Assembly: GCF_964204865.1 (NCBI RefSeq) | Contig: NC_135262.1 | Location: 11,780,001-11,844,000, forward strand | Source: Styela clava | Taxonomy: Eukaryota; Chordata; Ascidiacea; Stolidobranchia; Styelidae | Direction of reading: 5' to 3' | Length of the DNA stretch: 64,000 bases | Shown: positions 4,490 through 53,103 of the stretch, in pieces | How the letters are laid out: each line of letters begins with the position of its first letter | Position numbering within the stretch: the stretch's first letter is position 1 | The notes under the pieces: model-generated | Told to the model about the DNA's origin: nothing | What the model saw: the letters and a program-made list of their open reading frames with translations, nothing else | Database searches by the model: none | Made by a program: the position numbers and the translations under genes

Positions 4490-4547
4490 GTTCGCAGATA
4501 CTTCAGAGCAGCATAGGCCCCCAGCGAATACAGGTTGAGAACCACTG
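4490..4547. mobile_element. Relic of a hAT terminus
   Basis: The segment ends with ggttgagaaccactg (4533-4547), the standard right terminus seen on other hAT-like elements here (18637, 28159). The left partner was not found. It lies inside the loop of the foldback element. Confidence 0.5.
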
Positions 4548-8128: not shown

Positions 8129-11100
8129 TTAGACCTTGACGCAGCTCCCTCCTTGTTCTAGCTCCCACCCATCTTCACAACCGCAACGAATTCCCTGTTA
8201 AATCATGAAAAGCATGCATAAATTACAAAGCTGTTGCCAAGTTTCATCAATGATATCACTTTGTAAAAGATTTGATACTGGTACTACTTCTTTTGGGTTT
8301 TCGTGTACATATATTTGAGCATTGGCGGAAATATAAAAAAGTACGTGGGCCGGAGGGAGGTTTTCGTACGTTAGATATTCCACAGTTACAGCTTTGTCCA
8401 GGATATGATTTTTAAGGTAATTGTAAGTGGAATATTTTGTTTTAGCTTTCGTGTCCATAAATTTGAGCAATGCTTTCTTGTGTTCTAATTCTACTTTTTT
8501 CTTTGTATTGTTTTAGCATTGCTGTAAGCCTACTAACCTCAGGTGTGTTGAAACACAAATGGGCACATCTCCCGTTATCCTGACCACACGGACTTGTTAT
8601 GCCAGGTGGGGGATATAACTTGGTAGCCTTAATTCCAAATGGCTGCATATCAGAAGGCATAGTCGCTATGTAGCTATTAATAGAGTCTTCTGCTACATTA
8701 AAACGTTCAATTTGATTCGTTTTCCAATCCGTCCAATATATGTAATCGTCTAGGTAGCTAAATTGAAGGCAAACAATATCCGAGTTATTGCCTCAAGCAT
8801 TGCATCATATTTATAAAATAATAACATTTGAATTAGTAAAAAAAATATGAGAGTTATGACTAATTAGAGACATTAATATCTTGAATAATATTTCAGTATC
8901 TGAACGTTTTTACTTAAACACTAGTAGGCCTACAGCGTTACTGACCTCATTCCAAATATGTGAGGATTATCACCCGTAGACAAGGTTTTTCTTTCAGTTC
9001 CATCAGTATTAATGGAGTATATTTTGTCAGTATAGGCATCACCCCAGTAAATTTTGTTTCTTTTGATGTCTATTGCCATTCCTGATAAAATAATTAGAAT
9101 TGATTATAAAAATAATATTGTAAATAAAACTTAGTCCTAGATAGTGTTTGAGCCATGTCTATACTCTACAATAAATAGAAATAAACGATCCTAGGATGTA
9201 AAAATCGACACGTCTTGTTTTTATTCTGCGTAATATTAGACTATTTAGGAAACATCAAATTAGAAATTATTATTTTGATTAAATCATTGTTGTTTTATTA
9301 TTTTATAGTGTTGGTTAAAAATATCCAAGATACCTACAACGTTTCTTACCGTTTGGCCATTGAATATCATCGCTGACTAATGTTTTTACATTAGATCCGT
9401 CCATCCATGCAGACGCAATTCTAGGATTGTCTCCCCATTCAGTCCAATATATCTTCCCTCTTGATGGATCAACTGCAATGGGTCTATAAAATTGTAAATA
9501 AATAGTTTTATGTAAGTCATTAATGTGATTTTGTGTTTTTGAAATGGAGACCATACCCTACAATATCTTTCATTCAGTTGTATCAAACGATTTCAAACTA
9601 AATTTATCGGACACTTAGTGGACCTATGGATCGTTTCAATATTATGTTGTTGTTGTTCTTGTTCTTTGACACGTTTTTGGACACCTAGTGGAAAACCTAA
9701 AAAGTCGCTTTTTTCTTTGATTGATTCTTTGATCAATTGCTCTGAAATTTTCAGTGGTTAAAGATAAGATTTTTCTTTTATTTATTTCTAATATTTCTGT
9801 TAGCTCTGTGAGATTTGTTATTGTTTGCTATGACGTCACCGAACGTTCTGCGGACGCATAATAGGCTGGCACTCCTCTTCATGTTTTTTAAATCCCGTGC
9901 TATCGAACGTCGGTGGTTCGTAACAAAATCTTGGCTTTGCTAAGATTTGAGGAATGGTGAATGGCGAGTAGTGACTCGGATCGTTGGTGTTACTACAGTT
10001 GTGAGTCGGACCATCTTGCAATTTCAATTCACGCTGTCACAAGGCAGGAACTTCTAAAGATAGGGCGGTTCCGGTACCGTAACACAGCGCGGCGACACTG
10101 AACTAACTCGTAAGTGTCTTGTAAAAGCGGGGCTTGCAGTCACTGTTATAACGGATGTCTTTGAATGTTGGTGCTTTTCTTGGAATCAGTAAACGTGTCA
10201 ATATATTTCAACTACGGTATATTTTACTCATCTTAACTAAATTTGAGGTTATTGCACAATATATTATCATATTTCTTTTCGTACCTGACTCCATCTAAAG
10301 TATCATTTATTAGCAGTTTTTTTTGTCTGCTCCCATCCATTCTAGATACTTTGATAGCATCCTTTTCCGTCCAGTAAATGTTTCTCGCAACCCAATCTAT
10401 TGCTAACCCTTCTCCGGTTACCGTAGAATTGAACACTATAGAGTAGTCTTTTATAAAAAGAAGTGATAGAAATTAATTCCAAACGTTGATGGGATATATT
10501 CGTCCTGCATAAATATATTATTCATTCTTTTTAGGTCTAGTACATGCAAAAAATGAAACAAAAACTTGACCGAAAGCTACAGATTTCCACTTTGGAGTTT
10601 TTAATAAAGGGCAACAGTTAATATCAATTGCATTTTCTTCCTTAATTTGTGTTTATGTGGCAATAAAATTAGATTAGACACAAATCATTTTAATACGATT
10701 TTGTTATTTAAATGACTCCAAGAAACTGTACCTGAACCATCAAGTCGTGTTTTATAAATTCCCTTTTCTGTACAATACATAAAGCCTTCAACTGGATCAA
10801 AGTCAACGGCGATTCCCCCAGGAAGACTGGTAAGTTCAGTGGAATTGAAATCACCTTGTCCCGTCACTTCCTCAGTAAAAACCAAATTGTCAGTCCGCAA
10901 GAGCACAGCTAAATATAGGCGCTCATCTGATTCTAAAAAATAAATGGTATTTTCAGTATTAGGTTTTGGATCATTTCACTCTTAAAATAATGTTTTATAC
11001 CATAAAGAGCAAATCCTAATCGTATCTGAAACAAACAGTAACATAATATGAAATATTCATATTATTGGACACTACAGTGTACATAACGATCGTTCCAATA

Positions 11101-16110: not shown

Positions 16111-19022
16111 ATGTGGATAATGAAATTACTCTTCATTATAGGTAAGACTGTCTACACTCAAATTTCATCTTAATCGACGTAGGGTTAGTAGTATATCACA
16201 GAATTGCATCAAGCAACAAGATACAGTTTTAATTATGTGAGATAAGACAGTTTCAATCTTACAATTCTCGCTACTGTGGTTCATGTAAGTCCGATTGCAA
16301 GCTTTTACCACCAATGTAATAAGAGCATTGATTGCTATATTGTAATTAAATAAAGCACTTAAGCCACCGCTGCTATTTCAATTGCCTTGTCACAATTGGT
16401 CTTTTTAACTGTCATCTGGCTTCGTTTCTTGATGGGTTGATGTACAAGGCGCGTACATGTGGTAGATATATTTTTGAGGCGTTTTCTAACGACATCATCA
16501 ATAATAAATTTATTTTGTTCAACAGGTTCCACTGCTCATTGTATTTTCTCTCATTATGTGGATTTGTGTGAAAGCCAAACAGGATATTTCGAAGCGGAAA
16601 ATTCCACTTCACCGATTTTAAAATCGATTTCTCTATTTTCTGGAAAATGTACTTCCAGAGAAAATGCGGTTATACTAATTTTGAAGGAAAGTGACCTTCT
16701 AATCGGGAAGCCCAATTACCTTACTGCCTGTGATGGGTCGCTCAATTTTATAACGCCAAGTAATTACTAGATTTTTATGATTTTTGTGATCATGACCTAA
16801 ATCTAAACGTTCAACTAAATAGGCCGTACTTTGCATATACCAAATATGTAGAATTGTGTGGCCAAATATAGCAATAAATGTTGGACTTCAAGCAAAGTGC
16901 TGTGCTGAGCATTAAAGCTGTAAATTCCGACAAAGGCAACAAATTTTCAAGGGGTTATTCCATTACTCCATCATAAGATTTTATTTATAGATAAAGAGAA
17001 AATTAACGCATGAAAACTAGTCAAGTTCGCATCTTCCGATGAATTCGTTTTTAATATATATATATATATATAATGGAATTAATATGAAAAATTCAGTATT
17101 TTAAAAGTCAAATTAACCGGCGTCTAATAAATGACTGTAAATGAAAACACAGTCTGCGCTCTGATGCATCGTAAGTGATAAGTCTCCTATTTCCATGTTT
17201 ATACTTTGCAGGCATGGCCAAAGTACAAGAGCTCTGCATGTTCGAAACAGGAGTCTGCATAGCACTTCTGCCAAAAAACAACAATTGTTTGAACAATGAA
17301 ATATTACTTGGCTGCAAAAGTATATATTATATACCTCAAGATAACATATTCCCGTTGAATATAAGTTATAGTAAAAATTACACAGCACGTGATCACGATT
17401 TCAAAATAAAATATGCTCTTACATCATGCAACATATCGAAAACAAAAGTTGTTGGTGAGAACACTTATCTTTGTACATAACGTATATATATAAAACACGT
17501 GATTATTCTTCAGATTTGTAGCGATTTTGATTTATCAACAAGTGCCGCATTCGCTATCTTGTTTATTCATTCTCTTCTACCAGGACATTTCTGTGATAAA
17601 CGTTTCAAATTCTTTTCTATAAGCAATTTATAATAATCAAACACCTTCCAACTTTGCATAGGTCAAGATTTATAACCCGTCAGACTATCGCACTGAACAC
17701 TAAGTCATATGATGTCTTCTCCTATATTGCATTATTTATCATTAATGGTTTCACTGATACACTGCATTATTACTTACCAATTATCATTAATTCAGAACTT
17801 CATTCGACGACACTCAAGTCTACAACGCAAAATATAATAATTTATGATACAACGTCTGTTGCAGCTGAATTTGGAATTCTGTTTGGTATTACGTTGGTTC
17901 TCTTTATTCTGACATTAATAAAGTGAGTATTTAATAAATTAAACGATCCATTAATTAAACCTGTGGTACACGTACCACTATTGGTACGCGGAAAATGATC
18001 AAGTAGTACGTGAGCAGCTTTGAATTATTGCAACAATTAACTTTTGAGTTGGCCAAAATATGGCGACAGCGCTTTATCTTCCATACTGTATGTATTCGCT
18101 AAACGGCCTTTATGAATGAATGTTTCCCCAGGCATCAATTTCCTTGTTTTGTTTCCGTAACCAGCAACAATCAGTAAATATTGCCTCGTTTTGGTAGTTT
18201 TGCGTGTTATTTGTCAGTTTTCGGTTGCGTTTCAAAAAAAATAGTTATGAATTAAAATGAGGGTTTTAAACACGTAAACCAGCTTATAAGCGCCAACACA
18301 ACAAAACACTCTCAAAATAAGTATGAAAATTTTTGCAATAGTGAAGTATAGGAAGAATTATTCTGGGGTCAAGGGTCGGTGAAACGTCTTATGGACCAGT
18401 CCAGTCTTTAGATATCGCCCTCGCCTGCTATTGTCCACGAACGAATCGAGATGGGCATGTTTTCATCTTGCAAATTAGGTCACTAAGAATGTAGTGCCAC
18501 ATTATAAAGTACTCCCATAGCGCGTGTCTTATGCCATTGTTCCCCGCGCCAAAAAGAGGTTTTTCGGTGGTACGCGGCCAGAGTGAAAAAAAAAACAGTA
18601 AAGTGGTACGCAGTCAGTAAAAGGTTGAGAACCACTGTGATAGAGGAACCCGGTATCCTGCCGAAACCATGCGAAGTACCACACAGCAAACCAAAAAAAT
18701 TTGTGCACAGATTGCACTGTTTGTCTATAAAAGTTCTCGCAATATTTGAATAATATGTTTTCGAGGTTCGCATTCTATTTTAACTACTATAAGAACAAGT
18801 CTATTGTCTTTAAAGTGCACTTATCGCTCTAAAACTTATTTAACTCGTTTAATTTGATATTCTTAAAGGTTGTATCAAGTTACCAAAAGACTGAAAGGTG
18901 TTCGTAGAAGTTCTATTGCTACCATAACTGCCAACAAAGAAATGAATTTAGATTTGAAGAAAGTTGAACCCTGTTCTGTTCCGGCAAGTCCACCAAAGAT
19001 CATTGTGACTACAGAATTATAA
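16111..19022 (+). CDS. Type I membrane protein with two Cys-rich domains (tandem receptor A), 5 exons
   Basis: Exons: 16111-16141, 16526-16759, 17212-17454, 17796-17922, 18869-19022. Phases are 1,1,1,2 and the product is 262 residues. Exon 1 starts a short signal peptide (MWIMKLLFII). Exon 2 encodes cysteine-rich domain 1 (11-88; HCIFSHYVDLCES ... GKCTS ... YLTACDG). Exon 3 encodes domain 2 (89-169; ELCMFETGVCIAL ... NCLN ... LGCKS ... ALTSC). Exon 4 gives a Thr/Ser-rich stalk and one membrane helix at about 195-211 (GILFGITLVLFILTLI). Exon 5 is a 50-residue tail with basic and proline-rich parts and no tyrosine motif like that of its neighbour. Intron 4 holds a hAT relic. An AATAAA lies at 19316. 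I do not recognise the family. The paralogue at 20731-22407 confirms the structure. It is probably a cell-surface receptor or adhesion protein. Confidence 0.75.
17961..18637. mobile_element. Decayed hAT-like element in intron 4 of receptor A
   Basis: The right end is aaggttgagaaccactg (18621-18637). The left part ctgtggtacacgtaccac near 17961 and ggtacgcgg resemble the reverse of the right subterminal region (ggtacgcagtcag, gtggtacgcgg). The left terminus does not match cleanly and no target-site duplication was identified. No transposase frame is visible. Confidence 0.5.
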
Positions 19023-20730
19023 TCATAAGGGTGGTAGCTGCGTATTGCACTGTGGACAGATAGGCACATCAGGCCACATCACCAACGGGTAAAGCAAAAT
19101 ACAAATTCGAGTAAACATAACCATTGGATGCATTGACAAACAACGAATTTCAGATTTTTCGTCTATTTCAATCTTCTTCGTTTATTATTTATATTTTGCC
19201 TGTTAGTTTTTTCTTTCGCAATTAAACTGTGAATTGCTACTCTACTATATGAAACTGTCTCGGGATATTATGAACTACAATGTAATAACACTGTTAGTAA
19301 AATAATATTTTGCAGAATAAATATATATATATATATATATATAATTTTTTCTATTTTATTTGCTAAAACTTGCAAAAATATTTTTATTTTCTACATTCTT
19401 ATTATCACCAGACAGCGTCATAAATTTATGTAACTGAATCTTATTATATACCAACGTGTATTTCAATACATTTAAATACAAATACCCTAAAGTTATTAAA
19501 ATCAAATTATTGTGTGACCTATTTAGAAATTCATATGCCTAGAAATGCGGATATTGTAAAAAAACGAAAAACAATTTCGAATATTGTTACATATGCTTAT
19601 TTTATATACAAGCCAAATTTCCTGAAATGATATTTTACGATATCAGTATTTTCTAACTTTTACTGCAGTTCGTTCTCTATCTTTTTCTTCAATATATATT
19701 TTAGTGCAATACGGTGTTACTATACGATGTTGAAATATTTATATAAAACTACCTGTTTAAACTCGCGTACATGTTTATACTGTGCAGAAGGCAGAATTAA
19801 CCAACAATTTTGATGATCTGTCGTGTCTTATTTTCAGAAACTGAGGTTGCACATAAATTTTGTTGTGTTTTGTTATGCGTTTAATAACATTTTGAATCAT
19901 CTATGAATGTTGCTGTTATTGCGAATATGTATTAAATTATGTGTTTTAAAAAAAAATTTATTTTTGCTCCACTTAAAATTTATATAGCATTGTAAAAAAT
20001 AAGAATAACGCGGAAATGCTTGTGACTTAGGCAAGTTTGTTAAAAATGCTGTAGCCAGCACATTCCGGGCCAGATCGTTAGCCAGTGGTTGCAGCAAGAA
20101 TAAATCACGGGCGTGATGTGCATTAATTGAAGAACACAAAGACACAGCAATAGGCGGAAGAAAGGGTTGAATTGCTACAATTCTATTGAACTAAGGCCGT
20201 AAAATGACGAAATCTATATATTTTGCAATTTAAACTAGGAAAAATCCTATTTTTGTCCGTGTACATTTGTGTATAGTAGTATTACAGATTTAGCGATGAG
20301 TGTCAGTCACTGTACATTTTGCCATGTTTTCAATAATCAGAATTGAGAGTTTACTGTGTAACCCAACTATATTATTTCAATAAACGCACTAAAATCAGCT
20401 CATACATGGCAAAATGAGAATATTTATATTAAGCGCAACTAGGTTTATGTACTGGGCCCGGTTAATTTTAGTGCAACGCAATCGGAAACGTGGGCCAAAG
20501 ACAATCAAAATTAGTCATTCAAAAAATGAAAGTGCATATCATTTGAAACACAGAAGGGTATGTATGAGTAATGGATGAACGATACAATATATTATTATTC
20601 TGTACACTGGATATAATGGTCAATGATTCATGAATAAGGACAGATTTTCATGCTAAAGTATTACCAGAATAGAGTAAGAGTTCGGTGTAGTTGTTGATAG
20701 TTTGTATAAACACTTAATAAAAACTTGATT
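19023..20730. other. Spacer between receptors A and B
   Basis: Contains the likely 3' UTR of gene A (AATAAA at 19316-19321) followed at once by a (TA)n run (about 19320-19343). The rest is AT-rich with no exon seen. A TATAAA-like box at 20705, about 25 bp before the ATG of gene B, is too close to serve unless the leader is very short. Confidence 0.4.
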
Positions 20731-22407
20731 ATGGACTTGAAAACTCTTCTGGTAATCGGTAAGTATTGCATATCTTTCAATTTTCGTTCGAATACTTAGT
20801 TAAACGGTATGCATAATCGCAGTTTGAACATTTTTTCAGTCAATTTATTCGGAAGTACCTGTCCGTTGTATATCGACTTATGCAGGCAGAATAACGGAAC
20901 ATTCGAAGACGATGGAATGCCGACGCGATCAACAGTTTCAACAGGCCTATCTCTTGTTCTTGAAAACTGCACTATGGCCAACGAAATGCTAGTCATGGCA
21001 CTTGATAAAATGAGTCTGATACTTGACGATTCCGGATATCTAACCGCATGTGGAGGATTGCTCAGTTTTAAACTTCCAGGTAATATTTTGTACACGATGT
21101 ATTATAGCTTTTTTCTGTTTTACTGTTTTTGTATTTTTATCCTTGATTTTTGATTGTTTTCGTTAAAATTTTATACCCAGACAAATCGTCCGTCAACGAG
21201 CGTTTTTTCGTTCTTTTGCGTCCTTTCTTGATCACGTTAATGCTACTACTTTTATTATAAATTGTGACATACTGATGTTATTTGATCTTTCATGGAGTGT
21301 GGACTAGATCGATTTTTTTTATTCCAAGAAGACTTAAGAGAATCAAGAAATATAACTTAACGACTTTAACATTCCAGGTCACACTTCAAGTCTGGAACTC
21401 TGCATGTTTCAACAAAACAGTTGCATTGTTTTGATGTCGGAAAGAGTACAATGTAGCCAGTATGAAACCACGACAAGAAGACTTGGTTGTGGAGATGTTT
21501 TTGAAATTATAAACGATGTCATATTGCCGCTGAATATAACTTACAAAAAATTTTCAACCGACGATATATACAGCTTCAAAATGACATATCTGCTAACAAG
21601 ATGTGGTTCACAGGAGGAATCAAATCAAGGTAATTAAATGTAAATATATGAGATATGATCTGTATATTATACTAGACTAGGATTAAAGATTAAATTGTGA
21701 TGAATCAAGTTTATGGCATTTCCAGGCAAGTGTTCAGGATTTTCACTAATAAAAACAAGGGATATATTCTGTATCAACCTGTGTTTCTGCTGGGTGGTAA
21801 AAATGTTTTAAGATATCAAGTATTCTTTCAGTCTCGAGGTCTTTTGACTTTTCTATGCCTTGCTATGCTAATTACAAATCACTAAATCTCTCTGATTCAG
21901 CTCTCACTTTATCAATAGAAACATCTCAATATCCTCTATCTACCACGGCAAGAACTGGCGAGCAAAATGAAAACTATACTGGCGTTATATTTGGGATTTT
22001 ATTTGGAATTACGCTGTCTTTCTTCATACTGGTCTTGTTCATGTAAGTACTATCTTAAATGCCGGTATTGCTTATGAATAAGGGTTTTATTTGTTCAGGT
22101 ACGAAAAGTCTGTCCCGCTACATTTCTGACGAAAAACTGCCACAGGCGTATAATTATATTTTGCAGACTGTATCGTTGGAAAATGAAAAACAAAAATACA
22201 GCTAGTAAAAATGTTGGAAGTTCAGGGAGAGTGATGGACAATACTTATTCTATCGTTCAAGGTTCCATATCTCAAGTCAGAGGGGAGTCAGATACTAATC
22301 AAAATGATTTAGAAAACAATTACAGTGTTATACAAAAACAAACCGGAAAATCAAATATAGCTACCTCCAAGAAGGAAATGGTAGTTAATCAATTGTACCA
22401 CATGTAA
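20731..22407 (+). CDS. Type I membrane protein with two Cys-rich domains and YSxV/I tail motifs (tandem receptor B), 5 exons
   Basis: Exons: 20731-20758, 20840-21079, 21378-21629, 21901-22042, 22167-22407. Phases 1,1,1,2 are identical to gene A, and the product is 300 residues. A signal peptide (MDLKTLLVIVNLFGST) is split by intron 1. Domain 1 (10-89): CPLYIDLCRQ ... ENCTM ... YLTACGG. Domain 2 (90-173): ELCMFQQNSCIVL ... VQCS ... LGCGD ... LLTRCGS. A Thr-rich stalk follows, then a membrane helix at about 201-221 (GVIFGILFGITLSFFILVLF). The tail carries two matching tyrosine motifs, DNTYSIVQ (Tyr248) and ENNYSVIQ (Tyr273), 25 residues apart, plus LYHM at the end. YxxV/I motifs can bind SH2 domains when phosphorylated, so a signalling role is inferred. 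AATAAA at 22464. Family not recognised. Confidence 0.8.
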
Positions 22408-23443: not shown

Positions 23444-26400
23444 ATGATCGGGATGAGATTCTCTGAATGTTTTGTCGTTCTTATGATATTTTGTGGGCTG
23501 TCGATGCGAAGATCAGCTGCAGGTAACTAACTATTAAAATGATGATAGATACAGTTTTTGTTTCAGAATCAGCCGAAGGTGTGAATTTTACCCAAAATTC
23601 AATCGTAAAAAATAAAGAACTTTTTTGAATTTTATAGCTACTATCATCACGAGCCAACTAAATAGATTCTATTCAAATACCCATAATCCCATTTTGACTA
23701 TTCCAATTGATTTATATATAGCCTACTAAGCTAACTTTTGCGATCAATAACACCAAAAACATTTTCATTGGCGCTTCATCAGTATATGACTAGCAATATA
23801 TTTCACACTACAGCTCAATATCCCCCGTGTGATGAGATGTTGAAGACAATTTCAAAATCTAATCCAGTGTACGAAATGTTGTCTACTTTATGCGATGTTG
23901 TCAACATTGTCGCCAGTAATTTTTCAATGTCTGTTTCTGATCCAGGTTAAGTATATATATATGACTCCATAGGTTTCAATGTTTAGTCAATGTTTAGTAA
24001 CTATAAATATTTACCATTTTGGAATTTTTCAAGAAGAGCTGAAAAACTTAGTGAGGGTTTACCGGGTTGGTTTGATGACGACGACGCTGTCGATATTATG
24101 ATGTTGATTAAATTAAACCATGCATATTCGAGACTTCAGGTCATAAAAGCGCATAGCCACATTAATCGGTTATTGTAACAACTAGATCAGATTTTAGTGC
24201 AGTGAGAAAGATGCGTCGATACAACACGAGCAGAATAACATGAAAGACACATTATGTTTACCATTAATATAAATAATTAGATTCAAACAATTTACATTTA
24301 TTTCTGTTCGTGTTTTATAGCGGACAATTCCAATTAAATTCTAATGCCCATATTACAATCTACAGAATCAAGCCGCGATGAGCGACTAGTTGTGATCACA
24401 GCACTCAAACACGAAATTATTGTGATGACTGAACTTATTGCGGGAGAAAAAAACTTCAGTGTGTTTAAAGTTCCCGGCATGCAAGACGGAATATATGTTG
24501 ATTACGATTCTGTCGAGGGCTATGTGTATTGGGCATGGGAAGGGTTTCATAAAGCAAGACTTGACGGAAAAGGTAATTTTTTGAATCCGTGATAATTTGT
24601 TTTGGACAACGTTCACAAATTTTGCATCTTTCAAGAATACAAACACTTTATGAATGCAAATGAAACGTGTGAGGGCTTGACGATTGATTGGGTGGCGAGA
24701 AATTTATACTGGGTTGAATATACAAACAAAATAAAAGTATCGCGTATGAACGGAAGCTTGCAGAAAACATTGGTCGGTGCGGATGATTTGGATACACCAA
24801 GGTAGGCAGAGCAATGCTTAAATTAAAAAGTTGTTTGAATTTTGTACATAAATATGATTATAATTTTTCTATCTCATTTAGGGGTATAGCCGTTGATCCA
24901 TTGAGAGGAAAATTGTATTGGGGTGAATGGGGTTTCAAACCAAGAATTGCATCTGCATGGATGGATGGGACAAATTCAAAAACATTGGTTGACGAAGACA
25001 TTATGTGGCCAAATGGGAAGACATAATTCTAATAGTTTTTAAATTTAATAAATAAATTTGAAGTGCCACAAAACAGCCTACTGCAATACATAATACTCTA
25101 TACCAGTGATTCGTTCCTTCCTGGCCCACCAAGGGAGCGACAGAGCAATTGTAGGAGGCCACCATGCCACGCGCAGAACTGATTTCACTTTTTTTTTACA
25201 CCGCCCGTTCTTCCTAGTTTCATTGCTAGATAAGCTTATATCACAGAATGTTTTCCTTTTGTTGAGCATGAAATTGTTTGAACATAATGGGATTCGGAAT
25301 TTACCTATCAAAGTAACACTATAAATACCAATGGGGTGATAAACAGGGGCACCTTGAGTGATAAAAAGCTCCAACAGAGGGCCACGGGAAATAAAAGGTT
25401 TGGGACCACTGCCCTAAGCATTGTAGTCTTTTCATTGCATAAACAAATTAGATTTTGTTATATTAAATATGAAAATTTTTACAGGGGGAAAAAAACATCA
25501 CCCAAGCATTAAAACAAAAATCACCATAACTGTTTAATTTTCATTTGGCTTTTGATCTAACAGCAAATATTTTAGGCGTCAATTTTCGGATTTCAGTGTT
25601 TCAGAACTGAAAAAGGTTAATTCTGTTTATGCCCACATAGCTTGGTCAATATTCACGGTTACCATAACGACCATATGTATTGTGATTGATATTTTAAACT
25701 GTTTTTCCACAACAGGAATTACATCAGACATTGAACGGAATGTAATATACTGGATTGATGCTAGGTTTAATACTATATCAGTCGTCAACACCGACGGCTC
25801 TGGTAGAAAACAACTTCTGTCGACATCTTCATTATCTCAGAGGTCTCTCCTATTTGGAATAAAGTTAGTTTGACTTACATTTGATCATTTTCTACGAAAA
25901 TTCACTTGGGGTGTGATGACCTTGTTAATAATTTATGACTATATTTGATGATAATATTTGATGACTCTCGATGTAAACCTTTATTTCATGGTGTTAGGTA
26001 ATAAACACCTGACCCGAAAACAATGAAGTAACAAAAAATTTGCCTTTTCTACATTTTATGCATATATATACTAGGAGTTATTCATCGAAATATGCTGAGC
26101 CGGACTACGAGGTCTAATCATCAACAAAATTTGATAATTCAACCATCATTACCATCGTATCTTCAACACGAGTCTGAGTTTCTCAACGGCGCTGAAAAAC
26201 TTCACGTTAGGAAATGCTTCAGTACTCTATGAAGAAGCCATTTTTGCCTTTTTCATAACAAATACGTCCTTAAATTTGAAAATTAAACTCGTTTTCCTCT
26301 GTAAAAGCTATGTAGACAATCACATATATTGGACTGACTGGCTGAAAGGAAATCTCGAAAGCTTCAACGTGAATACAAATGAGACAAAGACCCTTCTACA

Positions 26401-26985
26401 TACCAACATTCCAATAAATGGAGTCAAAGCTACGAAACTGTACCCCCCGCCAGGAATTACAAATCAATGTGGGGTATTTAACGGGGGATGTTGGCATCTT
26501 TGTCTTTATACACCCAAGGTAAATAACGAATTTTGAAGATATTCTATTTTAAAAAATATAAGAGTCTATATAGTTTACTTTGACCGTTGAATAGAAATAA
26601 TATGGTTATATTGCGCAATTATGTCATCCAATGCTAAATAAAATTCATGCTTTGTTGACATGGGTATACTAAAGGAAGTTTATCCAAGCATATGAACGCA
26701 ATTTCTTGTCTAGATAAAGCAATTACCGAATTGAACCCTAGTAAATTGTGGGAAGAAAATATTATTTTAATTTACCATTTTCGCCAAGTATATTTCTCAC
26801 GATGTTTTAGCGCTTTTATGTTTCCTTTCAATCATATAAGTAAAGTAGCATAAATAGCATGCCATAGAACGTCGAAAGGAAGATATTCAAACGTGCACTT
26901 TTCATAGGGGCCAAGCTGCAACTGCGCGGATGGATGGAAACTCGATGTACACGGAGCATGCACTGAAACTGATATTGTCGTTTAA
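23444..26985 (+). CDS. Paralogue of the secreted YWTD-EGF gene, 8 exons, damaged donor after exon 5
   Basis: Exons: 23444-23522, 23814-23945, 24366-24572, 24636-24801, 24882-25015, 25716-25863, 26308-26518, 26908-26985. Phases 1,1,1,2,1,2,0 match the gene at 8129-12188 exactly. If all exons join, the product is 384 residues: signal peptide, helical region (CDEMLKTISKSNPVYEML), blades with VDYDSVEGYVYWAWEG, IDWVARNLYWVEY, VDPLRGKLYWGEWG, NVIYWIDARF and DNHIYWTDW, then a six-cysteine EGF module ending DGWKLDVHGAC. The exon 5 boundary reads aaatg|ggaaga where the paralogue has aaacg|gtaaga. Without splicing, translation stops at 25024-25026, giving 242 residues. So this is either a recent pseudogene, a truncated protein, or a gene with an unusual donor or sequence error. 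Downstream exons remain open, arguing that any loss is recent. AATAAA overlaps the stop at 26984. Confidence 0.75.
25014..25026 (+). other. Mutated splice donor and read-through stop
   Basis: By alignment to the minus-strand paralogue, the intron should begin at 25016, but the dinucleotide is GG instead of GT. The next in-frame stop, TAA, is at 25024-25026. No alternative GT lies within the exon end or the next 20 bp in a compatible phase. Confidence 0.7.
25104..25411. mobile_element. hAT-like MITE, 308 bp, in intron 5 of the plus YWTD gene
   Basis: Termini cagtgattcgttcc and ggtttgggaccactg form imperfect inverted repeats of the hAT type. Flanking 8-mers ctctatac and ccctaagc match at 5 of 8 positions. 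The length equals that of the element at 27852-28159, but the interiors look different. It sits in the intron whose donor is mutated. Confidence 0.6.
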
Positions 26986-44730: not shown

Positions 44731-46172
44731 ATGCCACCATATTTTTTAAAAATATATGTACTATTATATGTAATTTTTAACTTTCGTTTATGCGTTTCAT
44801 CACCTCCAAAGATAAAATTGGATTTACATGTCGAAGAAGAAACAATGCGAGGTAAAAAGCAGTTAGTTGCTGAAGTTGGTTAGAATTATTTAAGTAGAAG
44901 AGTGAAATGGCTATTCCTATATTTATTTATATTTACCCTTATTTCAAAATGCTTTCACTCATACATCTTGCTATGGGACTATTGTTGCGAGTTCATGGCA
45001 TCTCTGTAAATTTTAATTCATTCGAAATTATTGTTCATAGCGACGTAAAATCAGACCGAATAATACCGTGTTGCATCATTAACGAGAGCCAATGACGGAA
45101 AATTTGTGAAAATAATTTTGACAGTGTTGTGAATTTGTGCCCAGTAGAGGGTGAAATTCTAAATATATCTACGTTAAAAATTTCGTACATTTTTCAATAA
45201 AACAATACTACAATTCTTATTATACCTGAAATCGTTGCCGAGTAATTCAAAATTACATTTACCAAGGTCATAAATTTATGCTACCCTATAAGAGAATCGA
45301 TTACTTCTAATTTGATATTGTTACTGCAAAACAAGCAATGCGATCCCTTTAATTACAAACTATATAATATTTTTAATTTCAAACAAAAATAAATTTGATT
45401 TGGTTCATCATTATTCGAGAATTATTTCCATCAGTGGTCAGCAATATATATCAGCTTCCCAAATCATCGCAGACGTCTTTTGGTTTGTGACTTAAGCTTA
45501 TCTCATTCATTAAAAGGCCAACTCTCTTTATTCAGGACGAATATTGGCAGAAATCGACCCACTTGTCAACAAAGACATTTCCAGTCGAATTAATCGAAAA
45601 TTTAGAATTATTTCACAAAATATTCTGTCGAAAAACACACTAGGAGCAATTGTATCTAACAGAGCAAAGAGAATTGAAGTGCTTAAAATAAATGAAAAAA
45701 CTGGAACTTTGCGTTTATCACAAACAATCGACAGGGAGAAAATTTGTCCATCAAGTGCTGGGAAATGTATGATCAGAGCTCAAGTAAGTTTCTATTTGTA
45801 ACCTAATAATTTATGTGAACCTTGAGGTTTATTTATAGTCACCACATTTCGAAATCGACACTGATCACGTGATTTATCACACAATTTTTATGGTATGATC
45901 GGTTTCACACTATATATAAATATATTTGTGAGCTTTTCATATTTTTCAATTTTAGTTTCCATACAATACATACAACCATATAACATATGATTTATAATCC
46001 AATCACTGATTATTACTTTTAAAATTGAAAAAATAAAAATAAAAACCAGCAACAACTTCTAATATTGAATTCAAGTGAAATACGATTTTGAGCAGTTCTA
46101 CTTGTACTATGTAAAAATTGTGCATCAGTCGTAACTATGAAAACGGTCTGTCTGTCTGTCTGTCTGTCTGCC

Positions 46173-46263
<91 letters not shown>

Positions 46264-49200
46264 ATGTATGTATGTATGTATGTATGTATGTATGTATGTC
46301 TGTTAGATGCACGCGATATCTCACGAAAGCGAGATTAAATCTGCCCCAGATTTCGCATGTGCATTCATCATATCTCGGACCAGAACCCTTATGATTTTGG
46401 ACGAATTATGTCGTATAATTAGCGAGTTATTAATCAATTAGTGATGGGACACAAGTTGTCACTATGGAGTAAAAGCGCTGTTTTGGGGGATCCCCTCACT
46501 TTCGATCGATAAGTCTTCGGTCTCTGACTGATATTCTCGTTCAATTCATTATACACTAAAACATATTGCAAAAATCTCTAAATACTAAAATCTTGAAAAA
46601 ATAAAATATTCATAAATAAATGCCTAATTTTAATTTACAACGTTGTTTTACTCTACAGATTGTTGTTTTACCTCAAAAATATTTTCAACTGATTGAGACT
46701 GACGTCACTATCGATGACGTCAATGATAATACACCTACATTCCCACATGAAATTTTACACCTGAATGTATCAGAGAATTGGTCACTGGGTGAAGTTATTA
46801 ACTTGGACTCGTTTCAGGCAAAAGACAACGACATTGGTAAGATATATTTTTAAATTAACACAATAAAACTACAGAAAGTTCAAATAATAAGAGGTTACTA
46901 AAATATAAATTGTATTTCAAATTAAATCAGTATTATGATCAGAAATAAAATTGCTGTACACGATGATCTTTTGTAAATGCAAGGGTGTGAAATATTGTAG
47001 CAAATTTACCATTCATTTTATTACTTATGGTGTATACAAGGTCCAAGTATGATCATCAAATAATGCGTGATTCAATAAACTGTAGCTGTCAAGCCTAATA
47101 TGTGCGAATAAAAGCATTATTTAATAATACTAACTCGCTATTGAAGCATTGGATCATGTGTCTTTTTATGTCGTCACAGCTTACGACATTTCATCACAAT
47201 CAAGTATTTTTTTATTTCAAACGTTTTTTTTTATTATCAGGTAACAATTCAAAATTGGAGTATTCACTCTCACCAAATCCTTACTTTGAGTTGAAACATT
47301 TTATTGACAACAAAAATTCTTCCCACCTGCAGTTATTCCTGTTAAGAAAACTTGGTAAGTCATAATGAAATTTTATGATTAATGCTATTCTGAAAAATAT
47401 GATTTTTACTCATGTTTTATTTTATTCGTAGATTATGAAGACAACCCAGTCATAGAAATGAAAATTGTAGCTTCTGATCTTGGAATTCCTTCACTTAGAG
47501 GAGGAATGGATCTCAAAATACTCGTTCTCGATGTTAATGACAATTATCCAGTATTCGAGGAAGAGGTAACCTAAATGCATGTTGTTAATATAATTATTAC
47601 AAAATTTGTAAATATATTCTTTTTCCTCAATAGCTAGATTATCAATTCTTTAATAAATTTCTGATTATCAATTTCTAGGAGTATTCAGCCACACTGAAAG
47701 AAAATGCTTCTCCGCAATCCACAGTAGCGATTCTCCGAGCCCACGATGCTGATAGCGGATTGTTTGGTGCTGTGAGATACTATATTTCTTCAAGAAATAG
47801 TAAAGAAATAAAAAACCTCGTCAGAATAGATGAGATTACAGGAGTAGTGTCGTTAAAAGAAACAACAGACCGAGAAAATCATAATGGGTAAGGTTAAAAA
47901 ATGTGATATTGCAATATTCAAATAAAAAACATTAACGCTGAAAAAGAGTGAACGAATTAGAAAATTTATTGAAATTTATTTAAAGTTGAACGTTTCATAA
48001 ATGCAATAGTCAATAATAGTAGTTCTAAAGACAACCAATAATCATTTATGTTATTTCTCTTTTGATAAATATGACATTTGTATCTAAAATTTACCTGGCA
48101 AATAAGTTGGGGATGAAATAAGTGTATCGTAAGTTGTGCGTGGATTTAGACAATATTTCATTCTCAATTTTGATCTACATCTGTTATTTATTTCTCTAGT
48201 CTTCGCGTCCTAGTTGGTGCAATGGACTTGGATCCCATGAATCCAAAAACAGGGGAAACATGGCTTGTTATTTATCTGGAAGACGTCAACGACAATTCTC
48301 CAACAATAAGTATTGACTTCATTTCTCAACATTCAGAAAAGACAGGTAATATTTTATTGAAAAAAAAAAAACCGTTCAGGTGTATTCAAAACAAACACAA
48401 AAACGAAAAAACAATTAGTTTGGACATTCAGAAGCACAGTATTATTATATATTTTTAGTTATTCAGAATATTTTGCTCAATTTCAGCTTGATTTGCTCAA
48501 TAAATATATTTGACTAAATTCATTGATCTATTCGATTTTTTTTATTCGAATTACAATAATTTATATTAATAACCACGCCTATGAATAATTATTTATGTTT
48601 TAAATTTACACTTTTCTTATTTCACAATTTATCTAGTTTATCTATCGGAATTTTCGCCAAAGGGAACGTACATTGCAAGGGTTTCTGCTACCGATTCTGA
48701 TTCTGGCGACAACGGGAAAGTAAAAATGACTCTCACCACTAAAGTCGAATGCCGAAATTTGAGAGGTAACTGATTAAGTTTTACTGTCTATATCGTTTGA
48801 TTTCTAATTTTTGTTACAATTTTCTAATCATTTCCTCCTACTTGAAAAATATATTTTCAGACGATCATTTTATTTTATCAAGTGGCGGATTCTTGGAAAA
48901 TAATTACTCCTTTGATCGAGAAAGTTGCAGCAAATATAAAATCGTTATAAATGCTTGTGACCATGGAACACCTGAATGGTATATTTAATATTTTAAATAA
49001 TTGTTTCTTGACTGTTATTGAAAAATGTAGCTCATACATTCTGCGATAAAGAAATTCTTCGCGACTTTTGGTCGCGACTTATGAAATGTTTATTGTTTCT
49101 AGTTTTTTATACATGTAAATTATATTTTTATTATCCTCGAGTTGAAACTGTTATTTTTCACCAGGTTCTATTTATTTTGAATTTTTTCCTTTAAATGAGT

Positions 49201-52200
49201 ATTTTCGTAACTTAAAAGCAATATCGCAAATCAACTACAATGACTCACTTTGTTGTTTACTTCAGTAATACATTGTATATATTGTGTAGCTTTCAGTGTG
49301 AGCGTGAAATAATGGGCTGGATATGTCTTTACATAAATTTATATATTGTTCAGGTGTTCAGACGAAACAGTCACCGTTATAATCTTAGACGAAAATGAGG
49401 TCCCGCCAAAAATTCATACTCCGTTTGAAAGAGTAGTTCTGAAGGAAGATGCATATTTGGGAACTGTTGTTACAACTATTATAGCGTCAGATGCGGATGC
49501 AGTGAACGGACCTGGTTTCACCAAAAATGAGGTAAGAAATATTTAGCTTGTTTTGTAGCTATGATAGTAAAACAGTAAGATTTTTACACAGCAAAATATC
49601 CAAATTAAAGGTATTATAAATTTGTTTTCTTCATATAAATATGAACTAAATTCCTTCTCAGAATGATGACATTATTACATCTCGAAATGGAGAAATCTTT
49701 TTTTCAATCGTGGACGACAACAAAGTTCCGTTTACAATTGGGAAAAAATCCGGAAAAATTCGGCTCATGTCACAACTAGACAGAGAAGTTAAATCGGAAT
49801 GGAAGGTAATAAAAATAATATTTTTTCCAATGTGATGATATTTTTAATTTTTGTTATGGAAAATAAAATAGGATAGTAGGATATGCTTCAATTTGTTTCA
49901 AATTTGCTTCTAGTTGAAGATATTAGCTCGAGACGGGGGATTACCACCTATGGAAAGCTATGCTAATATTATTGTGGAGGTAGATGACGTCAATGACAAC
50001 AGCCCTCAGTTTGTCAATCCATCTGCAAACAATTCGCTCGTGTATGTCAACGTTTTAGAAAAGTCAGCGATTACAAAAGTAAAAGTAAGTTTGTTACATT
50101 TCACGCTAATTATTAATATGGTGGGAACTAATTTGAACAACATTAATATAAAAAATCTATATTCTGTTTTTAATAACTATATGAATACATTAATTATATC
50201 AAATTGTCTTTTCAATCTGATGTCTATTTTTCATTGCATCAACAGGCGATCGATTCAGATTCTGGGATAAATTCAAAAATCATATATTCCATCTTTGAAT
50301 ATACGAACAATTCGAAAGCACATTCTGGTTCAATGGATAATATTTCAATGCTTGTAAAATCTGAAAAAACGACCCCTCGTAAAGAAGACAGACATTATTT
50401 TATCATCAATCCAAACAATGGGGAATTACGTCTTAATTTTAGCAGGAAAAATTTGGAAGATTCTATAGGAGCACATTATATACGAATCAGGGTAAATTAT
50501 TCTTAATTATTGAATTTTAAAAAACTAATTTGAATGAATATTGAATTCCCAACAACAACAGCTTGCGTGTGTTGATTTTCTTCATATTTCATTCGAGTTA
50601 CTGTGACCAAAAATTTTATTTATTTCCTTACTTTTTCAGGCCAACGATCATGGAATCCCTTTAATGTATTCTGATAGATTCTTAAAATTGATTGTCGGCA
50701 AATATCCAAGTCAAAGTGGGAATCTCTTTACAAGAACAAAACAACTATTTTCACATTCTGTTGATCCGTTTATGCTCACCGTTGCACTTGGATGTTCTGT
50801 TCTCTTTTTGTTGGTTGTTGCTATAGTGATAGCAGTAAAATGTAGAAGTACGGACAAGGTTAGTACATTTCTGATATTTTTTGTCTGATAAATCACATAT
50901 TTGTTGCCATATTGTGAATTTGAATAATGCTGTAAATTTAAATTTTATCGATTAACTCCAAGTTAAATTTACAAAACTTTTCAAACTACAAATTTCTGCT
51001 CCTACTATTGAAGTTTTCTTGTTCTTTTTCCAGAATTTTCGAAAACGTAGCAGTTCCGTTACAACAAGTATCGAAATTAAAAGGAAGGGATTTAAAAATA
51101 ATAAATCAACAAAAGTAACATTTTACGACGAAATTGAGAAAAGAAGACAAAAAGAAATGAAATCTTCACAAGAAAGGTAAATTGTTATATCATAGTATGG
51201 TATAAATGACATCTCAAAAATAGAAACTGACTGAATATATCATTTTCTGTCTTGCAGTCTTGACTCAATGAAGCCGAATAAAGCGAATGAAGCTGCAGAT
51301 AATTTGAGTAATGAAGCAGTGCGTTGCAATCAAACGAGTACAGTGAGTATGACACTTTGATTTTTACTCGTTTACTTCGAATATGTTTATTACAATTCTC
51401 AAAATGTTTAGTATATCAATGAAATCTTATCTTTTGTTTCAGAACATATCATTTACGAATCATTCTGATAGTGACAGTGGAAAGGGTGATAGTGATCTTG
51501 ATGCCGCTGTTACCTCGAAAGGTATGGTCATATTTTGGCACTTTTATTCATCGGTATAAAATATTAAAACCCAACTGAATTGTATCATAAAGCAGCTGCA
51601 ACGTGGTATTTATTAACTGAGGTTTAGAGTCGTTAATACTCCAAATTGATCAAAAGATTAACTTTCTAGCCATTTTATTTCAGAACATATTCAACTGAAG
51701 CAACTTGCATCTAGATGTGGTGAACATTGTCGCATTTACGGACATAGTGATATGTGTTGGATGCCAGTGAACGGTAAGTAATGCAAGTTTGGAGTCAATG
51801 AAGAAAAAAAAATAACGTTATAGACAATAGCACAGACTGCTGCCATTGTACTACTAATTACTCTGTGTGGGTTAGCAGATCTGAATTTAATCTGATTGGA
51901 GTATAATTACGAAGGAAGGGATTTTGACTCGTCCACATCGTAGGTTGAATCAGTCTCTCTCTTCAAACTCTCCCTCCAAAACCAAGTACATGCATCTCGA
52001 ACAAGTGAATAGTTTACAGTTTTTATGCTCGACCCGAACTGGAAACCGAAAAAAAAATGTGATTTGCCCTATTTCCCTGAATAGAGATAAAAATTCTATT
52101 CTATCCTATAAAACTATTCAAGACAAATAAATATTTTGTTGTTCAAATGAGTTTGTGTAGTGAGGAACTTGCTGAGCATAAGCACGATTGTTGCTTAGCA

Positions 52201-53103
52201 AGTGAACGTATATATTTTAATTACAATAATCGTACTATAAGTCTAATTTTTCGAAACTTTTTTGAACCTAACTCAAGGCAAATTGTTGTATAAATGTATT
52301 TAGTGTTTGACGGTAGATTTGAACCTGCAATACTTCTCTAATGTATAATTAACGCCAGAAAAGATTATAAGATATTATATTGTAAGGAAACTGTGAATAA
52401 AACATAGCTGTTACGTTTTACAGAGAGTCACGATGTACGACCAATCCTTACGCAATACAACTGGGAAAAACTGAAACCAAGATATATTAGAGATAATAAT
52501 GTTAGAAAAAGCATGGCTTTTTCCTCATCGTCCTTGATGCTTGGAAAAATTCACAGTCCACCCAGTTCCACAGGAAGAGAAATTTACAGACCGCAACATA
52601 GAGTGTTTGAAAGAAGACATTCTAACCCCACTCTTTTAGAAGAGCAACCTCATCCTTATTCACGCAATGACATTGGTTTCACATCGCCTCCTAACTATTC
52701 ATCAATACTTCAGCAAAATAATTCCATGGTACAGTACGTTTCCCCTCCTACTTCAAATATTTCCACCCGTACATTATGTCTCAAACGATCTTCAAAAATT
52801 GACAAAATGACAATGAATTCAACAAATATTGTATGCAACCTCGACACGGTTTACGAAACTGAGTCAGTATCTCATTTATCCAGTGAATTCGATTTGAGTT
52901 CACCTCAGTGCAACTCAAAAGAATTGAGGGAAACCAGAAACCTTATTAATAAGAACTCAATACATTCCGATGCGTACGGAAGGGATTTACATGAAAATGT
53001 GAATGCTTCTCATATTAATCCACAAAGCGCAAAAAAGCACAAAAGCTTATCGATGGAAGAAACGGAAGATATCATCAATAACATTGAAAATTTACTTCTT
53101 TAA
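44731..53103 (+). CDS. Delta-type protocadherin, 19 coding exons
   Basis: Exons: 44731-44851, 45536-45783, 46659-46836, 47241-47354, 47432-47565, 47679-47887, 48200-48345, 48637-48765, 48861-48978, 49354-49531, 49662-49805, 49914-50084, 50246-50491, 50640-50858, 51034-51176, 51258-51342, 51443-51521, 51684-51773, 52424-53103. All phases agree and the product is 1,143 residues. A signal peptide is followed by six cadherin repeats, delimited by DDVNDNTP (142), DVNDNYP (254), EDVNDNSP (363), DENEVPP (478) and DDVNDNSP (597), then one membrane helix at about 756-779. The tail holds DSDSGKGDSD (870-879) and CRIYGHSDMCWMP (903-915), matching conserved motifs of delta-protocadherins. Role by family: calcium-dependent homophilic adhesion, often neural. 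AATAAA at 53124. The many introns in the ectodomain contrast with the single large ectodomain exon of vertebrate protocadherins. Confidence 0.9.
46146..46304. repeat. (TGTC)n then (TGTA)n microsatellite in protocadherin intron 2
   Basis: About 29 TGTC units (one tgcc variant) run into about 9 TGTA units. The translated open frames on both strands are artefacts of the repeat. Confidence 0.95.
46298..46545 (+). repeat. Dispersed repeat copy flanking the microsatellite
   Basis: Inverted relative of 1685-2010. Begins gttagatgcacgcgatatct right after the microsatellite and includes ttatgtcgtataattagcga and gggggatccc followed by atcgataagtcttcgg. The repeat-to-microsatellite junction is the same in both copies, so the microsatellite likely travels with, or grew from, one end of the element. 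Confidence 0.8.

Follow-up and report, generated by a model that had tools for sequence, protein, structure and literature searches.

Two neighbouring putative CUB-related receptor genes with unlike tails in Styela clava belong to a large clustered family

What kind of receptor is encoded by two neighbouring genes of the tunicate Styela clava, whose predicted products follow one ectodomain plan and end in unlike tails, and in which setting could such a pair act? The two genes, here called A and B, lie on contig NC_135262.1 (C17) within a stretch of 64 kb (11780001-11844000), which we refer to as the window and whose own numbering is used for the pair and its surroundings. An earlier note on this DNA had described them as a tandem pair with two cysteine-rich domains that could not be placed in any known family, in a layout recalling paired immune-type receptors. 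The explanation we favour, and which as a whole we hold to be somewhat better than an even bet, is that A and B are tandem CUB-related receptors, of which B would signal through tyrosines and A would lack the corresponding tail, in a recognition setting.

According to gene models made from the sequence, gene A encodes 262 and gene B 300 amino acids (aa), each in five exons on the forward strand. In gene A, exon 1 (16111..16141) carries the start codon and a likely signal peptide and ends in phase 1, and it is followed by the cysteine-rich segments D1 in exon 2 (16526..16759) and D2 in exon 3 (17212..17454), which we read below as the first half and, with extra cysteines, the putative second half of a CUB-related domain. 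Exon 4 (17796..17922) runs from phase 1 to phase 2 and encodes a stalk and a membrane helix, and exon 5 (18869..19022) encodes a tail without YxxI/L/V that ends in TTEL, which we take to be a class I PDZ-ligand-like pattern. Gene B has its start codon and likely signal peptide at 20731..20758, D1 at 20840..21079, D2 at 21378..21629, stalk and helix at 21901..22042 and, at 22167..22407, a tyrosine tail with DNTYSIVQ, ENNYSVIQ and a C-terminal MVVNQLYHM that resembles paralogues. All eight introns of the pair are GT-AG, their phases are 1,1,1,2 in both genes, D2 has five cysteines in each, and the helix starts with an identical GILFGIT. The sequence facts reported in the earlier note, namely a tandem pair with common exon number and phases, a near-identical helix start, one ectodomain plan and unlike tails, with both repeated tyrosine motifs in B and none of that form in A (one tyrosine in the tail), are thus confirmed.

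A and B are 36% identical in D2 and 30% in D1, and in a tblastn search of the window with both of them the D2 segments matched each other with E values of 1e-11 to 7e-11, the D1 segments with 4e-9 to 2e-8 and the helices weakly with 0.004-0.008. Besides self-matches, this search found nothing better than E 0.2 in the 64 kb, and profiles trained on relatives scored strongly in the window for A and B only; a candidate third copy on the minus strand at 10617 matched over just 16 residues and was taken as chance. In trees A and B are sisters, with a support of 100/99 among 20 ectodomains (long-branch warning for A) and of 99/95 among 26 D2 sequences (long-branch warning for B). Judged from these comparisons, A and B are homologous tandem duplicates, and by architecture they are type I membrane receptors. 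An AATAAA is located about 57 nt past the stop of B and about 294 nt past that of A. Within intron 4 of gene A, in the part 17950-18650, we found GGTTGAGAACCACTG, the same letters as at 4533, which resemble the ends of hAT elements.

The pair is not alone in the genome (376.6 Mb, 379 contigs), which was searched with the ectodomains of B, A, one member from contig C19 and one from contig C6. Counting only matches that cover the D2 part of the query, and excluding D1-only matches and repeated places, we obtain 33 merged D2 places at E ≤ 0.001, and looser cut-offs of 0.05 and 10 raise this number to 53 and 70. The great part of the 53 (45) falls into three clusters, with at least 22 on C1 (27.59-28.05 Mb), 17 on C6 (18.2-18.54 Mb) and 6 on C19 (7.10-7.13 Mb); the remaining eight are A and B themselves and six scattered places. 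The loci of the relatives show open D1, D2 and stalk-helix exons with splice sites in the same plan as A and B; since these exons were chosen under the phases assumed from A and B, the agreement in phase is not independent evidence. Leaving aside two skipped loci, 26 were examined for a helix exon; 21 yielded a candidate, and after removal of L015 as implausible a plausible stalk/helix exon is left in 20. Within the C19 and C6 clusters, D1, D2 and tail were compared between paralogues in 57 cases, and in every one the ratio of nonsynonymous to synonymous substitution rates (dN/dS) lay between 0.10 and 0.72, which means that these paralogues are coding and constrained on average. From this we conclude that, by sequence relationship, A and B belong to a large clustered family of tunicate receptors; no such family appeared in the titles or abstract beginnings of the papers listed, a search that left bioRxiv uncovered and from which we claim no absence from print. 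Small extra groups of D1/D2 places occur at C3:20.19-20.25 Mb and C16:3.496-3.501 Mb. On C1, a second D2-like exon occurs in L025, and D2 places form three pairs with a spacing of about 300 bp; on C6, the membrane helices of L017 and L021 have a glutamate at their middle, in L017 together with a YxxM motif in the tail.

The ectodomain, which the earlier note could not place, gained a likely relative by profile-profile comparison. A profile of 16 family members, A and B included, was compared with a CUB profile in hhalign, and D1 aligned to CUB columns 4-61 with a score of 29.6 (E 1.8e-4), while the best of 200 column-shuffled CUB profiles reached 18.1 and the reversed profile 9.4. A larger CUB profile, composed of 8 CUB domains from the PDB and 19 from the same genome, gave a score of 28.1 (E 2.8e-4; best of 60 shuffles 16.6) for the whole family and of 41.4 (E 8.3e-7, probability 92%; best of 60 shuffles 18.6) for the C19 subfamily; the full-length CUB alignment from this comparison was accepted at a threshold set very low (mact 0.01). 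A D1 profile built from A, B and two relatives reached D1 exons of C19 at E values of 7e-9 and 3e-7 among 365 candidates and therefore links A and B to this subfamily, in which the N-terminal CUB-like pattern of D1 (GxIxSP, CxW and hydrophobic strands) is clearest. These results support the view that D1 is a diverged N-terminal CUB half. Since D1 corresponds to a first half, what the earlier note counted as two cysteine-rich domains are more likely two exons of one domain, i.e. D1 and D2 probably form one CUB-related domain that is split by an intron and has added cysteines, with the second half assigned by inference. In both comparisons the best match of D2 lies at CUB columns 91-112, on the last strands and in the expected place. 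The exon split is also close to the site at which canonical CUB genes of the genome are split, without coinciding with it. Of the 150 canonical CUB matches scored (out of 350 candidates), at least 25 end at CUB column 61-66, the others elsewhere, and a donor-like phase 0 GT follows two codons past the D-Y/F of this strand in 7 of the 10 loci that were read. Canonical CUB exon groups were seen at C2:24.06-24.11, C3:8.18-8.22, C14:13.36-13.41 and C19:9.35-9.39 Mb.

Several results weigh against this relation to CUB. Pfam scans with E values of up to 10 returned no match to CUB (PF00431) in any of the 16 aligned members, neither the scans of A and B alone nor those of seven relatives listed one, and sequence searches of the PDB with B and relatives found no CUB match. 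hhalign gives the whole family a probability of just 48%, or 41% against the larger CUB profile. When D2 was compared by itself, it scored 13.5 against CUB, where shuffles reached 16.2, and 17.8 against the larger profile, where they reached 16.3. The D1/D2 intron of the family is in phase 1 and follows the canonical phase 0 site by about 7 nt, or by about 13 nt in A and B, and is therefore not at the canonical position. Furthermore, D2 has cysteines that CUB does not have, and, in an alignment judged by eye, A, B and the members on C6 carry the second cysteine at another place. Two other candidates were dismissed: weak matches in the family and PDB searches, the best of them to SNAD1 (0.0075, in 2 of 16 members) and to Mid2 (0.0058, in the stalk and helix of B), were scattered and taken as chance, and a reading of D1 and D2 as internal duplicates was rejected (hhalign score 9.5, E 0.39).

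The tails were compared in 18 members, comprising A, B, 13 relatives and three loci (L020, L034 and L039) from a pattern search; of the 20 helix-bearing loci, the tails of L022, L025, L026, L028 and L031 are outside this count. YxxI/L/V occurs in 16 of the 18, and a V-V/I-x-x-L/I-Y pattern stands near the stop in 13, mostly after a YSxV/I about 20 residues upstream. Besides the MVVNQLYHM of B, examples of such ends are VVVNELYNL, VVNQLYTMAP and MVDNQLYSSL in relatives. The search for the end pattern gave 26 forward-strand matches, which comprise 13 distinct tails (some of them met in more than one overlapping locus) and 6 chance-like matches, and it gave 8 matches on the reverse strands. The tail of A is alone among the 18 in having none of the patterns tested. 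At the level of sequence motifs, the tail module of B (YSxV ... VVxxxLY near the end) is thus common to relatives, and since members on C6 and C19, outside the A/B pair, share it, A most likely lost or replaced a tail of the B type.

One relative is a mosaic of its neighbours. In the group of L039, L032 and L033 (C19:7.107-7.134 Mb), L039 is nearer to L033 upstream of about position 1580, which lies inside D2, and nearer to L032 downstream, so that its D1 is like that of L033 and the part from the end of D2 to the tail like that of L032. Among 256 informative sites, 58 against 16 favour L033 before the break and 14 against 168 after it, the 168 being those of L032 (Fisher p 3e-29 for the break that scored best among those tried, uncorrected for that choice). 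Both tails involved carry tyrosine motifs. The mosaic therefore indicates that ectodomain and tail can be exchanged between neighbours.

The surroundings of the pair include YWTD/LRP-like frames on either side, in opposite orientations (8442-11000 on the minus and 24338-26536 on the plus strand), two of which have weak Pfam matches to EGF_LRP2 or FXa_inhibition below the cut-off. Further away, frames that look cadherin-like by eye (VNDNSPQF) are located at 49914-53103 on the plus strand; three of them were scanned, without a Pfam match at E ≤ 0.01. A long four-base simple repeat at 46019-46405 translates as TDRQ, and an Rfam scan of the window gave no match. Elsewhere in the genome, one GH6 exon scores above the Pfam cut-off behind frames that look hydrophobic by eye, which suggests a cellulose synthase joined to GH6, a combination that among animals marks tunicates; COX1 was not found in the assembly.

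How could A and B work? D1 and D2 would form a single CUB-related fold that sits on a stalk and binds a ligand. Clustering of B by a ligand would lead to phosphorylation of the YxxV/I tyrosines and of the tyrosine in the C-terminal VVNQLYxM, and SH2 proteins would be recruited, while A, with its tail lost or replaced, would bind a related ligand without a signal of the B type and might act as a decoy, as a tuner, or via a partner or a PDZ protein. The most likely setting, to go by the layout, would be the recognition of self and non-self or of microbes. Immune-type signalling by the family is plausible, and the size of the family, the tail common to relatives and the L039 mosaic make recognition receptors more plausible. 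Other findings pull the opposite way. No sign of positive selection was seen in the 57 dN/dS comparisons of C19 and C6 paralogues. Because several tails were found via tyrosine patterns, the tail set is biased and tyrosine-free tails are under-counted; the C-terminal pattern is missing from L012 and L018, and the tails of L006 and L024 on C1 are of a different, tyrosine-rich kind, with 8 and 6 tyrosines (in stretches such as GYEIPI and EYEPTN). Strict patterns are rare among the 18 tails, with one immunoreceptor tyrosine-based inhibitory motif (ITIM), one switch motif (ITSM) and no activation motif (ITAM).

Two rival explanations concern the gene products themselves. D1 and D2 might be two separate small domains, D1 alone a CUB remnant and D2 a new cysteine-rich module, as the symmetric phase 1-1 exons, the five cysteines of D2 in A and B, the second D2-like exon of L025, the closely spaced C1 pairs and a D2-CUB similarity that is not clearly significant would suggest; we consider this unlikely, as D1 matches just the first half of the CUB sandwich and D2 finds its best match where the last strands belong. 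It is more improbable still that A is a decaying gene or that the model of its last exon is wrong, in which case the contrast between the tails would be an artefact. The tail of A has no second match in the genome, and its exon is preceded by a 946-bp intron with a repeat end. However, the frame of A is open across five exons with good splice sites, its tail exon starts with LYQ, comparable to LYR in B, and a pattern search from 17923 to 20730 revealed no convincing alternative tyrosine tail.

The other two rivals concern the role of the pair. In a strict pair of immune receptors, B would inhibit through its tyrosines and A activate through an adaptor, with a ligand common to both. The tandem arrangement, the family clusters, the one ectodomain plan with unlike tails and the mosaic gene elsewhere in the family all fit, and this part of the comparison drawn in the earlier note stands. 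Strict pairing, in contrast, we regard as improbable: the ectodomains of A and B are only 30-36% identical, the YSIV and YSVI of B have an asparagine at the -2 position and thus form no ITIM by the strict pattern, an ITAM is absent, and the helix of A has a lysine only at its inner edge, before a tail of about 50 aa, and no basic residue inside. The definition of paired receptors asks for such a basic residue in the helix of the activating member (PMC3533184); strict pairs would also show closely similar ectodomains, an ITIM in the inhibitory member and a short tail in the activating one. A and B may nonetheless function in a comparable manner. Alternatively, the family could consist of adhesion, fertilisation or developmental receptors without an immune role that expanded by ordinary tandem duplication. 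CUB domains serve many roles of this type, dN/dS is below 1 throughout, and the neighbours of the pair are LRP-like frames and no known immune genes. This is the least improbable of the four, although we doubt it, since the size of the family, the divergence of its ectodomains, its mosaic member and the unlike tail of A would be more in keeping with recognition families.

In a broader and more tentative proposal, which we rate as possible and clearly short of even, one tunicate lineage would have taken a degenerate CUB domain, split by an intron, as the scaffold of a large receptor system that recognises self and non-self or microbes. Its members would have a family-specific tyrosine tail, others such as A would be partners that lack this tail, and recombination would exchange ectodomains and tails between neighbours, i.e. 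a further chordate solution beside immunoglobulin (Ig)-type and fester-type receptors. If the receptors do act in recognition, CUB would be a building block of repertoire-type signalling receptors in the sister group of vertebrates, in place of Ig, lectin or sushi domains, with many members retaining a tyrosine tail even as their ectodomains diverge and are swapped. With clusters this large, any tunicate for which several genomes exist would allow a direct test of polymorphism and expression. Pfam scans of A, B and relatives listed no Ig or sushi families. The mammalian paired receptors (KIR, LILR, PILR and others) are likewise clustered, related receptors with unlike tails and tyrosine-based motifs; unlike A and B, they have Ig or C-type lectin ectodomains and an ITIM or an adaptor-binding helix (PMC3533184). 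A tunicate comparison is offered by Botryllus, which has a fester family (FF) without known signalling domains and fester co-receptors (FcoR) with tyrosine motifs of the core YxxI/L/V (PMC12065747). As in the family described here, these are tunicate multigene type I receptors, some with tyrosine motifs and some without known signalling domains (PMC12065747), whereas FcoR is built from Ig and sushi domains in 520-610 aa (PMC12065747), as against the putatively CUB-related A and B of 262 and 300 aa.

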